NCBI GenBank assembly: GCA_017432425.1
Contig: JAFRJE010000020.1
Span: 1 to 34,582, forward strand
DNA length: 34,582 nucleotides
Reading direction: 5' to 3'
Origin: Candidatus Saccharimonadota bacterium
GTDB taxonomy: Bacteria; Patescibacteriota; Saccharimonadia; Saccharimonadales; Saccharimonadaceae
Every line of letters starts with the position of its first letter. Within the stretch, counting starts at the first letter, position 1. The notes beneath the pieces are model-generated. The model made no database searches. It was not told the origin of the DNA and saw nothing but the letters and a program-made list of their open reading frames with translations. Of the stretch, positions 16,708 to 21,012 are shown one piece after another. A program made the translations under genes and the position numbers.

Positions 16708-18155
16708 TGCCTCAGAAAAAACCAAAATTCAGGCTGTTTAGCGCAGTGCTCGCGACGGTCTGTATTGTTCTCGTGATCGACGCCGTCGCTCCGACCGCTT
16801 CGATTGGGAACAGTCAATACCTTTGGTGGATTATAATGATCCTAGGGTTCTTCATTCCCTATGCTCTTATCTCCGCCGAACTCGGTACACAATATCCCTC
16901 AGAAGGCGGGATGTATACCTGGGTTAAAAAAGCTTTCGGAAAGAAATGGGCTGGGCGCGTCGCTTGGTTCTACTGGGTCAATTTCCCGCTCTGGATTGCC
17001 TCCCTTGCTGATTTATGTACAACTCTAATCATGCAAGCATTCGGCGTCGAGCTAACTTTGACCGAGATTCTTGTTATCCAGGTCGTCTATATTGCCCTCG
17101 TAACTGTCTTCGGTATGATGCGCATTTCTCAATCCGCTTGGGTTGCGAACCTCGGCGCGATTGTGAAATTTATCGTTCTCGCCGGGATCGGTTTTATCGG
17201 AATTTATGTTTTTCTAAGAGAGGGTTCTGCGAACCCCGTCGAAAGTTGGCACGATCTAGTTCCTCTAGCTTCTGCTGACGGCGGGATAGATTGGACTGGT
17301 CTTTCGTTCGTTTCTTTGATTATCTTTAATATGCTCGGTTTTGAGGTTGTCGGAACCTTTATCGACGACATGGATAAGCCGAAAAAACAAATCCCCCAAG
17401 CGATTATTCTTGGCGGTATTTTGATTGCTGTGTTCTACTTATTACCGAGCTTTGCGATGGGCGTTGCGATTCCTCTCGAAGAAATCGAAACGAACAGCGG
17501 GCTTCTCGAAAGTTACGGCGTTCTTCTCTCGACGATTGGACTTTCTGCTGCCGCGATTAAATCGATTATCGCCGTCGTTGGCGGAATGTTTATCTATACT
17601 TTGATTGCGAATATTGCTTCCTGGCAATTCGGCGTTTACTCCGTCGTTGCTTACGCTGCGAAAGACGGAATTTTCCCGAAATCTTGGAAAAAACTCAATA
17701 AAGACGGCTGTGCGTATGTCGTTTCGCTTTGGACGAGTATTATCGCGGCGATTCTTGCGATTGCTGGCGCACTCCTCGGCGAATATCTTCCCGATTCGGC
17801 GTTCTCTAACGCGTTCTGGGCGTTCTTCGATCTCTCGCTCTTCTGTCTCTTGATTGGTTATATCCCGATGTTCTTCGCCTATATGAAACTCCACAAAAAA
17901 GGCGTCCAAGACAAAAACGGCTACTGGATTTCCGGCGGAAACTTAAAACGAATCCTCTTCGGGGTTGTTCCAGTAATCATGCTAGTTATTTCGCTGTTCT
18001 TTACTCTAATCCCCGAATTTGATATGGAAGTTATTGCGGATAATTCAACGTTAATTATTAGCTCCGTCGTCTGTGTCGTTATTGGCGAAGTCCTTGTCTG
18101 GAACATGGGAAGAAAAGACAACGAGAGAAAGGCGCTTCGACGTGCGAATAAATAA
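16707..18155 (+). CDS. aguD: APC-family antiporter, probably agmatine (or arginine)/putrescine
   Basis: A 482-residue integral membrane protein with about 12 hydrophobic segments. The N-terminal helix-1 region is FSAVLATVCIVLVIDAVAPTASIG, and LGTQYPSEGGMYTWVKKAFG is the conserved APC-superfamily E-(F/Y)-P-x-EGG-x-Y region. Its place between aguB and aguA and the AAGGAGGG ribosome binding site with a TAATG overlap tie it to the agmatine pathway. Family knowledge suggests electroneutral or electrogenic exchange of substrate for putrescine. Because pdaD is present, arginine/putrescine exchange is equally plausible; specificity cannot be read from sequence. Confidence 0.85.
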   Translation: MPQKKPKFRLFSAVLATVCIVLVIDAVAPTASIGNSQYLWWIIMILGFFIPYALISAELGTQYPSEGGMYTWVKKAFGKKWAGRVAWFYWVNFPLWIASLADLCTTLIMQAFGVELTLTEILVIQVVYIALVTVFGMMRISQSAWVANLGAIVKFIVLAGIGFIGIYVFLREGSANPVESWHDLVPLASADGGIDWTGLSFVSLIIFNMLGFEVVGTFIDDMDKPKKQIPQAIILGGILIAVFYLLPSFAMGVAIPLEEIETNSGLLESYGVLLSTIGLSAAAIKSIIAVVGGMFIYTLIANIASWQFGVYSVVAYAAKDGIFPKSWKKLNKDGCAYVVSLWTSIIAAILAIAGALLGEYLPDSAFSNAFWAFFDLSLFCLLIGYIPMFFAYMKLHKKGVQDKNGYWISGGNLKRILFGVVPVIMLVISLFFTLIPEFDMEVIADNSTLIISSVVCVVIGEVLVWNMGRKDNERKALRRANK

Positions 18156-19239
18156 CAGTACCCCAAAAGCCGACGGTTTTTATATGCCGTCTGAACTTTC
18201 CGAACATTCCGCGACTTATCTTCTTTGGCCCGAACGCCCCGACAACTGGCGGGGCGGGGCTAAACCCGCTCAAGCAGCGTTTAAACAAGTCGTCGAAACG
18301 ATTGCGAAATACGAACCGGTTATTCTCGGCGTCAACCAAAGCCAATACTCCCACGTTCTCGGTATGAACATGAAAAATGTGCGAATTGTCGAAATCTCGA
18401 ATAACGATTCCTGGATTCGCGATACTGGACCGACTTTCCTTGTTAACGGAAAGGGCGAACGTCGCGCGGTTGACTGGGCGTTTAACGGCTACGGCGGACT
18501 CTATAATGGAATTTACTTCCCGTGGGACTTCGACGATATGATTGCCGCGAAAGTTTGCGCTATTGAGGGCGTCGACCGCTACCGAACCGACGATTTTGTC
18601 CTTGAGGGCGGTTCAGTCCATTCCGACGGCGAGGGAACTCTCCTCGTAACCGAAGAAACCTGTCTTGATAAAGGACGCAACCCAGACCTCTCGAAAGAAG
18701 AAATCGAAAAATATCTGCTCGATTATTGCGGCGCCGAGAAAGTTCTTTGGCTCCCCTATGGAATCTATAAAGACGAAGATACGAACGGTCATATTGACAA
18801 CATTTGCCAATTTGTCGCTCCTGGAAAAGTTGTCTTAGCTTGGGAAGACAATGAACAAGACCCCCAACACGAACGCAGTAAAGCGGACCTCGAATATCTC
18901 GAATCGGTTACCGACGCAAAAGGACGTAAACTCGAAGTAATTAAAATCCACGTTCCGAACCCGATTACGATTACGAAAGAAGAATCTGAGGGCGTTGATG
19001 TTGTCGAGGGGACGTTCCCGCGCAACGAAGGTGATCGTCTCCCTGCTAGCTATATAAATTATTATAACTGTAACGGCGCGATTATTCTTCCGGTCTTTAA
19101 CGATGAACACGACCAAGCTGCGATTAATATCCTCCAGGGTCTCTTCCCGGACAGGAAAGTCGAACCGATTTATGCTCGCGAGATTTTGCTTGGCGGCGGC
19201 AATATCCACTGTATTACCCAACAGGTCCCGAAGCCTTAA
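18142..19239 (+). CDS. aguA: Agmatine deiminase
   Basis: Hydrolyses agmatine to N-carbamoylputrescine and NH3. Signature segments: STPKADGFYMPSE, LLWPERPDNWRGGAKPAQAAF, NNDSWIRDTGPTFLVN, DEDTNGHIDNICQFV (catalytic His) and GGGNIHCITQQVP (catalytic Cys). The start is GTG at 18142, inside the end of aguD (14-base overlap), with GAGAAAGG about 10 bases upstream. This gives 365 residues and puts the catalytic cysteine at 357, the same number as Cys357 of the Enterococcus faecalis enzyme. The in-frame ATG at 18073 would add 23 unrelated residues and is rejected. It is the last gene of the arcC-aguB-aguD-aguA run, followed by a long structured terminator RNA. Confidence 0.94.
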   Translation: MRINNSTPKADGFYMPSELSEHSATYLLWPERPDNWRGGAKPAQAAFKQVVETIAKYEPVILGVNQSQYSHVLGMNMKNVRIVEISNNDSWIRDTGPTFLVNGKGERRAVDWAFNGYGGLYNGIYFPWDFDDMIAAKVCAIEGVDRYRTDDFVLEGGSVHSDGEGTLLVTEETCLDKGRNPDLSKEEIEKYLLDYCGAEKVLWLPYGIYKDEDTNGHIDNICQFVAPGKVVLAWEDNEQDPQHERSKADLEYLESVTDAKGRKLEVIKIHVPNPITITKEESEGVDVVEGTFPRNEGDRLPASYINYYNCNGAIILPVFNDEHDQAAINILQGLFPDRKVEPIYAREILLGGGNIHCITQQVPKP

Positions 19240-19241
19240 TA

Positions 19242-19379
19242 AGTTCGCGATTCGAAGTGTTTCTTTCGGGGATGTCCGGACCGCTACGAGGGAGGATTAA
19301 GGCACCCGAGCCCCGTAACGACGGGAGCGAAGGACGCCGGTCCCCGAAAGGAACCTTCGAATGAAAGCGAACTTTTTTT
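19242..19379 (+). ncRNA. Unidentified long structured RNA / giant terminator after aguA
   Basis: Nested pairings can be read directly: AGTTCGC (19242-19248) with GCGAACT (19367-19373); ATTCGAAG (19250-19257) with CTTCGAAT (19355-19362); GTTTCTTTCGGGGA (19259-19272) with TCCCCGAAAGGAAC (19341-19354). Inside are GTCC/GGAC (19274-19277 with 19332-19335), CGCT/AGCG (19282-19285 with 19326-19329) and two hairpins, GGG...CCC (19290-19292 with 19305-19307) and CCCGT-AACG-ACGGG (19312-19325). The base of the stem is followed by T7. The outer 7-bp helix plus T run is a proper terminator, but the branched interior far exceeds what termination needs. I find no SRP, tmRNA, RNase P, 5S or 6S consensus. 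No coding potential is evident. Confidence 0.7.
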
Positions 19380-19380
19380 A

Positions 19381-19389
19381 TGCTATAAT
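19381..19389 (+). promoter_or_regulatory. Extended -10 promoter of gpmI
   Basis: TGCTATAAT ends 6 bases before the ATG at 19396 and begins one base after the T run of the preceding RNA; predicted leaderless. Confidence 0.65.
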
Positions 19390-19395
19390 GTACTT

Positions 19396-21012
19396 ATGGA
19401 AAAGAAATTATCTTATAAAGGTCCCGTCGTTCTTGTTGTAATGGACGGCGTCGGACTTGCTCCCGACGGCGACGGGAACGCCGTAAAAAAGGCGCATACC
19501 GAATTTCTCGATTTTGCTCTCGAAAATTATCTGAATATTCCGCTCGAAGCCTCCGGCGAGGCTGTCGGGATTTTAAAGGGCGATATGGGTAACTCCGAAG
19601 TCGGTCATAACGCCCTCGGCTCTGGTCAAATCATTAAACAGGGAATCGCCCAAGTCGAAGATTATTTTACTTCCGGGAAGATTTATGAGGGCGAAACCTG
19701 GCGTCGCCTCATTGATAATGTTGTCAAAAATACAACATCGCCGAAGCCTAAAACCCTCCACTTCGCCGGCATCTTTTCCGACGGCAATGTCCATAGTTCT
19801 ATCTCCCATCTCGAACGCATGATTGAGAGAGCAGCTAAAGAAAACGTCGAGAAAATCCGCGTCCATCTCATGATTGACGGTCGCGACGTTCCGCCACAGT
19901 CTGAGCCGAAATATATTAACCGCCTCGAACAGTTCCTTGAACCGTTTAACGAGTCCGGAAAAGATTATAAGATTGCGAGCGGTGCTGGTCGTATGGTCGC
20001 CGTCTGCGATCGCTACGAAAACGATTGGAATATGGTTAAACTCGGCTGGGATATGATGGTTGGCGGCGTTGCCGAAAATCAGTTTACTTCCGCCCTCGAA
20101 GCCGTCGAAACTTTCCGAAAAAAAGATCCAAAAATCCAGGATCAATATCTCCCGCCGTTTGTTGTTGTTGACGAAAATAAAAACCCCGTCGGCAAAGTCG
20201 AAAAAGGCGACAGTTTTATTTATTATGATTTTCGCGCCGACCGCGCGATTGAAATCGCGATGAGCTTTACTTATTGTGATTTTCCATATTTCGACCGCGG
20301 CGCTTATTCCCCCGACGACGTTTGCTTCGCGGGTATGACCGAATACAATTCCGATACCCATGTCCCCGCCTTAACGCTCGTCCCGCCGATTAAAATCGAA
20401 AACGCTCTAAATACCTTTCTCGGAAAAAATAATATTTCCGAACTCGCCGTTTCTGAAACTGTTAAGTTTGGGCATATTACCTATTATTTCAACGGCAATT
20501 CTTACGAAAAAGCTCCCCTTGAAGAACAACTAAAAGTTGAATCCGATACCCTCCCGTTTAATACTCGCCCATGGATGAAATCCGCCGAAATAACCGATTT
20601 AATTCTAGACAATCTCGAAAAATATCAGTTTATTCGCGTTAATTTCCCTGGTGGCGATATGGTCGGACATTTTGCCGAACTCGAACCAACGATGGTCGCG
20701 ATGGAAGCGATTGATTTGAGCCTAAAGCGAATTGCTGAAAAAGTTGATGAGCTCGGCGGCATGATGCTAATTACTGCCGACCACGGCAACGCTGAAGAAA
20801 TCGCCGATTCGAACGGCAATCCAAAAACCTCCCATTCTTTGAACAAAGTCCCCTGTATTTTCTACGACAATACCGAAAATCGTGCAAAATATTATTCAAA
20901 AAATCTCAAAGACGCCGGACTCTCAAACGTCGCCGCGACGCTTGCGCTTCTTCTCGGTTTAGATAATTACCCGAAAGATATTTGGCGCGAACCGCTAATT
21001 AGTATAGAATAA
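19396..21012 (+). CDS. gpmI: 2,3-bisphosphoglycerate-independent phosphoglycerate mutase
   Basis: Interconverts 3- and 2-phosphoglycerate in lower glycolysis, using two Mn(II) ions and a phosphoserine intermediate. The alkaline-phosphatase-type core shows VVLVVMDGVGLAPDGDGN with metal ligand Asp17, GDMGNSEVGHNALG with catalytic Ser67, IDGRDVPPQS, DRYENDWN, and late metal ligands in GDMVGHF and ITADHGNAEE. Length 538 is slightly above the usual ~510. The start is set by TGCTATAAT-6-ATG. The ZIP gene follows after 4 bases. Confidence 0.95.
   Translation: MEKKLSYKGPVVLVVMDGVGLAPDGDGNAVKKAHTEFLDFALENYLNIPLEASGEAVGILKGDMGNSEVGHNALGSGQIIKQGIAQVEDYFTSGKIYEGETWRRLIDNVVKNTTSPKPKTLHFAGIFSDGNVHSSISHLERMIERAAKENVEKIRVHLMIDGRDVPPQSEPKYINRLEQFLEPFNESGKDYKIASGAGRMVAVCDRYENDWNMVKLGWDMMVGGVAENQFTSALEAVETFRKKDPKIQDQYLPPFVVVDENKNPVGKVEKGDSFIYYDFRADRAIEIAMSFTYCDFPYFDRGAYSPDDVCFAGMTEYNSDTHVPALTLVPPIKIENALNTFLGKNNISELAVSETVKFGHITYYFNGNSYEKAPLEEQLKVESDTLPFNTRPWMKSAEITDLILDNLEKYQFIRVNFPGGDMVGHFAELEPTMVAMEAIDLSLKRIAEKVDELGGMMLITADHGNAEEIADSNGNPKTSHSLNKVPCIFYDNTENRAKYYSKNLKDAGLSNVAATLALLLGLDNYPKDIWREPLISIE
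21005..21010 (+). promoter_or_regulatory. Possible -10 of the ZIP-galU-radA transcript
   Basis: TAGAAT, 6 bases before the ATG at 21017, overlapping the gpmI stop codon. The match is imperfect; read-through from gpmI is an equally good explanation. Confidence 0.35.

Follow-up and report, generated by a model that had tools for sequence, protein, structure and literature searches.

The question raised by this locus is what kind of element occupies positions 19242-19379 of the analyzed stretch of Saccharibacteria DNA (34,582 nucleotides, hereafter the window), where a strongly folded segment is enclosed between two protein-coding genes. Assignment of these neighbors as aguA and gpmI in the initial annotation is borne out by Pfam: a gene of the agmatine deiminase family (aguA-like; 18073-19239, start position as annotated; PF04371, E 2e-118) lies upstream and gpmI, encoding iPGM (19396-21012; PF01676 and PF06415), downstream, both on the forward strand, as are all features described for the window below. 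Minimum free energy of the segment amounts to -68.1 kcal/mol against -45.3 ± 3.6 kcal/mol for 200 dinucleotide shuffles (z = -6.4), none of the 200 being as stable. The architecture proposed earlier, namely three stacked outer helices around two branches with a run of seven T residues at the base (T7, 19373-19379), was recovered, the third helix being about 15 bp rather than 14. According to the predicted fold, the outermost helix comprises 7 bp (19242-19248 with 19367-19373), the next one inward 8 bp (19250-19257 with 19355-19362), and the third, with both branches inside it, about 15 bp (19259-19273 with 19340-19354); an inverted repeat of 14 nt (I6, 19259-19272/19341-19354) was found at this place independently of the fold. 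The 5′ arm (19242-19273) and the 3′ arm (19340-19373) thus delineated belong to the outer stem P1 and surround the three-way-junction core (19272-19343; 74.5 bits and cmsearch E 1e-16 with covariance model R1 described below), from which hairpins P2 (19274-19297) and P3 (19301-19338, with the most conserved stretch CCGAGCCCCGTAACGACGGGAGCGAAGGA) protrude in the predicted structure.

In the initial annotation this segment could not be matched to the SRP, tmRNA, RNase P, 5S, or 6S consensus and was considered as a possible processed 3′ UTR small RNA, a novel ncRNA with its own terminator, or a riboswitch-like element, with conservation of its position next to gpmI or agu genes suggested as a check. 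The first statement agrees with the Rfam search, which returned nothing at the gathering level and no meaningful match to the window element at E values up to 10. A link to the adjacent genes did not survive comparison with relatives (mostly gut and rumen Saccharibacteria, judging from record titles): among 52 gpmI loci, the R1 search found no core match upstream of gpmI, with one locus carrying a copy inside gpmI itself (L153) and another one elsewhere (L167). Since its position is not conserved, the role of riboswitch or 3′ UTR regulator of gpmI or agu was rejected. Instead, the window element is a member of a GC-rich palindromic repeat family dispersed in many copies, which lie in both orientations and mostly within unrelated protein-coding genes.

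The range of this repeat was outlined by two approaches. With blastn, matches to the window element were detected in 41 of 99 relatives, all from the same genus and often many per genome, including eight scored matches in the genome of the window itself. Covariance model R1, built from a 40-copy alignment of the 70-nt core, detects the element in 157 of the 174 genus genomes; scored copies number 29 in the richest of them and 10 in the window's own, and a class-wide search with the same model gave 115 positive genomes out of 392, all belonging to one family (6/152 genera sampled). Genomes were sampled as one per species, many of them being metagenome assemblies. Individual copies span about 125-165 nt and consist of the GC-rich core (GC content 0.70 versus 0.465 for the window) within a long outer stem. 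In total, 101 distinct copies were catalogued; because they were selected for resemblance to the window copy and for the highest scores with the model, divergent copies are under-represented among them. The exact core pattern has no match in IMG/VR, and a phage origin was set aside on this ground. A search of the open-access literature brought up no description of comparable elements from Saccharibacteria, although absence there is no proof.

The core of the family is composed of the outer stem P1, branch P2, often capped by a UACG loop, and branch P3 carrying the nearly invariant hairpin GAGCCCCGTRAMGACGGG; columns of P2 covary across the family. The search for homologues with compensatory changes, suggested initially as a check, revealed them in abundance: in the 112-copy alignment 93.9% of cells pair and 277 cells are changed on both sides, these pair counts leaning towards the model to which the alignment was fitted. 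The covariation score of the 112 copies is 0.399, whereas shuffles give 0.106 and slid registers do not exceed 0.051, and the first alignment, made by MAFFT without structure, gave the same picture. Such strong covariation would be natural for a functional structured RNA family, either small RNA or cis-regulatory element, which was multiplied in the genomes and keeps its fold by selection for RNA pairing. In its favor one may also count the GA/GA internal loops in P2 and P3, present as well in many P1 stems, the conserved apical loop, and the fact that most internal-loop positions together with a bulged A of the core are conserved by 78-95%; conservation of unpaired positions implies that something selects on structure or sequence as well. 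Helices of typical RNAs, however, tolerate G-U pairs. The core helices contain 1689 Watson-Crick cells but only 9 G-U (of about 1700) against 16 A-C, and this near absence of G-U speaks against pure RNA selection, which was rejected as the sole cause of pairing. Covariation alone is no proof of RNA function here because template switching at the DNA level can also keep the arms complementary (PMC8794818, PMC8604942).

Genomic location of the copies is informative in the same respect. With an open reading frame required to have at least 130 codons and to be open through the whole core, 82 of the 101 copies are in frame inside ORFs, 43 in sense and 39 in antisense orientation, all phases being used; these ORFs were called mechanically, with Pfam or orthologues confirming only some of them. 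Among the hosts confirmed by Pfam are UvrB, PolA, class I tRNA synthetases including ArgS and IleS-like proteins, LepA, TruB, Der, Obg, GatB, ValS, and TsaD, the latter with two copies in one gene. The equal frequency of both orientations inside unrelated genes, along with the lack of a conserved place next to gpmI and of an Rfam match, is hardly expected for a functional RNA family. The insert-encoded peptides contain many G, S, T, P, and E residues, as exemplified by GDGSLAPVVTGLAPSSSVVTSGS. Depletion of stop codons in the core beyond base composition was not detected (3.60 open frames observed versus 4.05 in shuffles), so that GC content is enough and stop-codon depletion as coding adaptation was rejected. 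For gatB the empty site is evident: many relatives read LMQKLGEIDEKYVKNVSNLFAS where carriers hold about 30-35 extra residues, and relatives likewise show no insert, or a different one, at the corresponding loops of valS and the ileS-like gene. Both between genes and in linkers of essential proteins, copies occupy places where relatives have none, and those in genes keep the reading frame whichever way they are oriented.

The same permissive linkers host other insertions too. Different in-frame inserts were observed in gatB of L121, L127, and L132 and in the ileS-like gene of L245, L251, and L253, which suggests more families or decayed copies. A second, unrelated family of palindromic inserts, likewise in frame and with copy-specific arms, was seen in the ileS-like gene of L240, L241, and L242, in valS of L067 and L068, in the argS loci L209 and L210, and in L259; it is recognizable by the peptide SADALL..R.S.T....PASS and the DNA motif TCAGCAGATGCGTTGCTC, and its right arm in the ileS-like gene mirrors the conserved host SAFVLF codons, tracking their synonymous changes between species. 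Downstream of gatB, the close species G099 and G119 differ by about 110 nt in length (L088 2039-2338 versus L090 2036-2449) in a region holding another hairpin-rich stretch.

The outer arms vary between copies yet pair within each of them: at least 15 Watson-Crick arm pairs are formed by own arms in 89 of 101 copies and by swapped arms in 3 of 303 combinations. One might suppose that arms are derived from the target at insertion. Three copies at different loci of the window's own genome (L034, L035, and L037), however, share arms with between-site identity of 0.97 and 0.91, while the arms within a copy are identical only by 0.77; arms can therefore travel with the element, and their origin from the target was rejected. 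In one of these, L034 (G000:C12), the left arm is partly duplicated in tandem, GCTAGCCGAGTCCAAATGTT appearing twice on the upstream side of the core as the element reads. Homogenization after insertion fits better. Old orthologous copies in truB have arm identity of 0.89 within the copy versus 0.72/0.67 for the same arm between orthologues, those in gatB 0.94 versus 0.73/0.75, and in lepA the effect is weak (0.80 versus 0.75/0.66, n = 3). Moreover, in gatB the core of L119 is 96% identical to that of L111 only once inverted, its left arm being related, although the flip could also have arisen from another insertion event with reversed orientation. Arm homogenization and spacer inversion have been described as hallmarks of template switching between inverted repeats (PMC8604942), a process capable of mimicking compensatory RNA evolution (PMC8794818). 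Strand-neutral homogenization alone predicts no excess of G-U pairs, and the outer arms do show it (54 G-U versus 23 A-C). The ratio is similar in sense, antisense, and intergenic copies, which hints at structure formed by the element strand itself rather than by host mRNA as such. This excess, independent of host orientation, is one more argument for a functional RNA family; weighed against the G-U-poor core and the dispersed, orientation-indifferent location, such a family appears to us an unlikely explanation of the whole phenomenon.

Enzymes of the carrier genomes were considered as possible sources of mobility for the repeat. Small size, palindromic structure, and high copy number are reminiscent of MITE- or REP-type elements moved in trans by an IS200/IS605-like Y1 (HUH) transposase, or of a retro-element spreading via reverse transcriptase, and both variants would be compatible with conservation of unpaired bases on one strand and with the absence of target duplication, visual inspection revealing none at four young copies (L033, L034, L035, and L037), whose boundaries are known only to within a few bases. 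Nevertheless, distribution of these enzymes does not match the presence of copies: Y1_Tnp occurs in only 2 of 60 genus genomes, and RVT_1, found in 40 of 60, is absent from many genomes bearing 14-24 copies (G003, G024, G025, G035, and G054 among others), on account of which both enzymes were rejected as mobilizers and the corresponding scenario is considered very improbable. Only a slim chance is left, in our estimation, for the element being a folded single-stranded DNA site of the resident Xer-type tyrosine recombinase, similar to attC of integrons. Variation of stem sequence with persistent pairing and unpaired bases is what such a site should display, and 38 of 40 genomes contain at least one tyrosine recombinase, often a single one, but Xer is near-universal anyway, which makes its presence uninformative; the flank profile of one sub-family (37 copies) has no strongly conserved end motif, and neither a cassette gene nor a direct link to the recombinase was found. 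In the window's own genome one copy (L031, G000:C16:20584-20661) is located just upstream of a gene for an Xer-like tyrosine recombinase (G000:C16:19634-20164), probably by coincidence.

As for the particular copy in the window, part of the initial idea of an ncRNA with its own terminator survives: the gene-specific RNA has to be abandoned, and a terminator role stays plausible. The 3′ half of the closing 7-bp helix followed by T7 (19367-19379) resembles an intrinsic terminator and, being placed right after the aguA stop codon, probably serves termination of the aguA operon, although a simple terminator scan did not report it as the loop is too long for the scan rule. The 3′ arm probably also supplies the -35-like hexamer of a candidate σ70-like promoter for gpmI (ATGAAA-17-TATAAT, 19361-19389), proposed from a consensus match only (10 of 12 positions; 1 found versus 0.2 expected). 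In the window (19384-19396) the gpmI start codon follows TATAAT at a distance of 6 nt, and similar spacing is observed in several relatives; should the candidate promoter be real, this distance implies that gpmI mRNA is leaderless. Another intergenic copy, L018, is followed by a T-run and TATAAT as well. One could therefore imagine an elaborate but ordinary intrinsic terminator specific to the aguA-gpmI junction. This supposition is barely credible and as a full explanation is refuted by the same core occurring in hundreds of copies, mostly inside ORFs; in addition, L154 has aguA (ending with QQVPLP and a stop codon overlapping the gpmI start by ATGA, in CCATGA) joined directly to gpmI, with neither element nor terminator between them.

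Taken together, these observations are most consistent with the window element belonging to a mobile, non-autonomous family of palindromic repeats, confined as sampled to one Saccharibacteria family, with arms kept complementary mainly by template switching, and we assign to this reading a probability of about 0.7. It is weakened by the failure to find a mobilizing enzyme among those considered and by the lack of visible target duplication at the four young copies. The element would spread as hairpin-forming DNA; after insertion, template switching between the arms would copy one of them onto the other and sometimes flip the core. Arm pairing would probably also owe something to selection on the folded strand of the element, given that unpaired core positions are also conserved, and these bases may perhaps be needed for recognition of the folded strand during movement. 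Once acquired, copies can be inherited for long periods. A bolder version, to which we attach somewhat less than even odds, depicts an active, hairpin-forming selfish DNA residing mainly in essential genes, whose arms are continually rewritten by template switching up to core flips and copying of host-flank codons, so that covariation looks RNA-like and arises at the DNA level, with possibly several such families per genus.

The family is best read as a new one of the same kind as Rickettsia palindromic elements (RPEs; Ogata et al., 2000), repeats of about 150 bp situated between genes and in frame within genes (PMC10969869). As far as the descriptions available to us allow comparison, both are palindromes of about 150 nt with many copies, intergenic as well as in-frame in unrelated genes, and lack an autonomous gene. 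In contrast to RPEs, the present family belongs to a different phylum, exploits both orientations and all phases, has copy-specific arms evolving in concert, and possesses a three-way-junction core with conserved GA/GA loops. Template-switched quasipalindromes (PMC8604942, PMC8794818) share with it arm homogenization, multi-base compensatory change, and spacer inversion in coding genes, but they are short native inverted repeats, in contrast to the dispersed Saccharibacteria palindrome with its conserved core and copies in the hundreds. In Nematomorpha mitochondria, coding palindromes (PMC6649704) are likewise long inverted repeats in protein genes with both translation and pairing preserved; their arms both encode conserved host protein and the abstract describes no dispersed core, while a linker absent before is introduced by the Saccharibacteria insert. 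REP/BIME and MITE elements are also short, non-autonomous, hairpin-forming, and numerous, but REPs have 20-40 bp (PMC3733652) and are extragenic by name, and the Saccharibacteria family is not tracked by RAYT-type Y1 transposase.

Rickettsia offers the best-known examples of in-frame palindromic elements, and Saccharibacteria, with their small genomes, provide a large independent instance, where most species of one genus carry the element and many copies sit in essential genes of translation and repair. Hundreds of natural replicates thereby become available for learning how stems stay paired, and they warn that strong covariation statistics may stem from DNA-level homogenization of arms and not necessarily from a functional RNA. 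For the bacteria themselves, repeat DNA emerges as building material for linkers in essential proteins.
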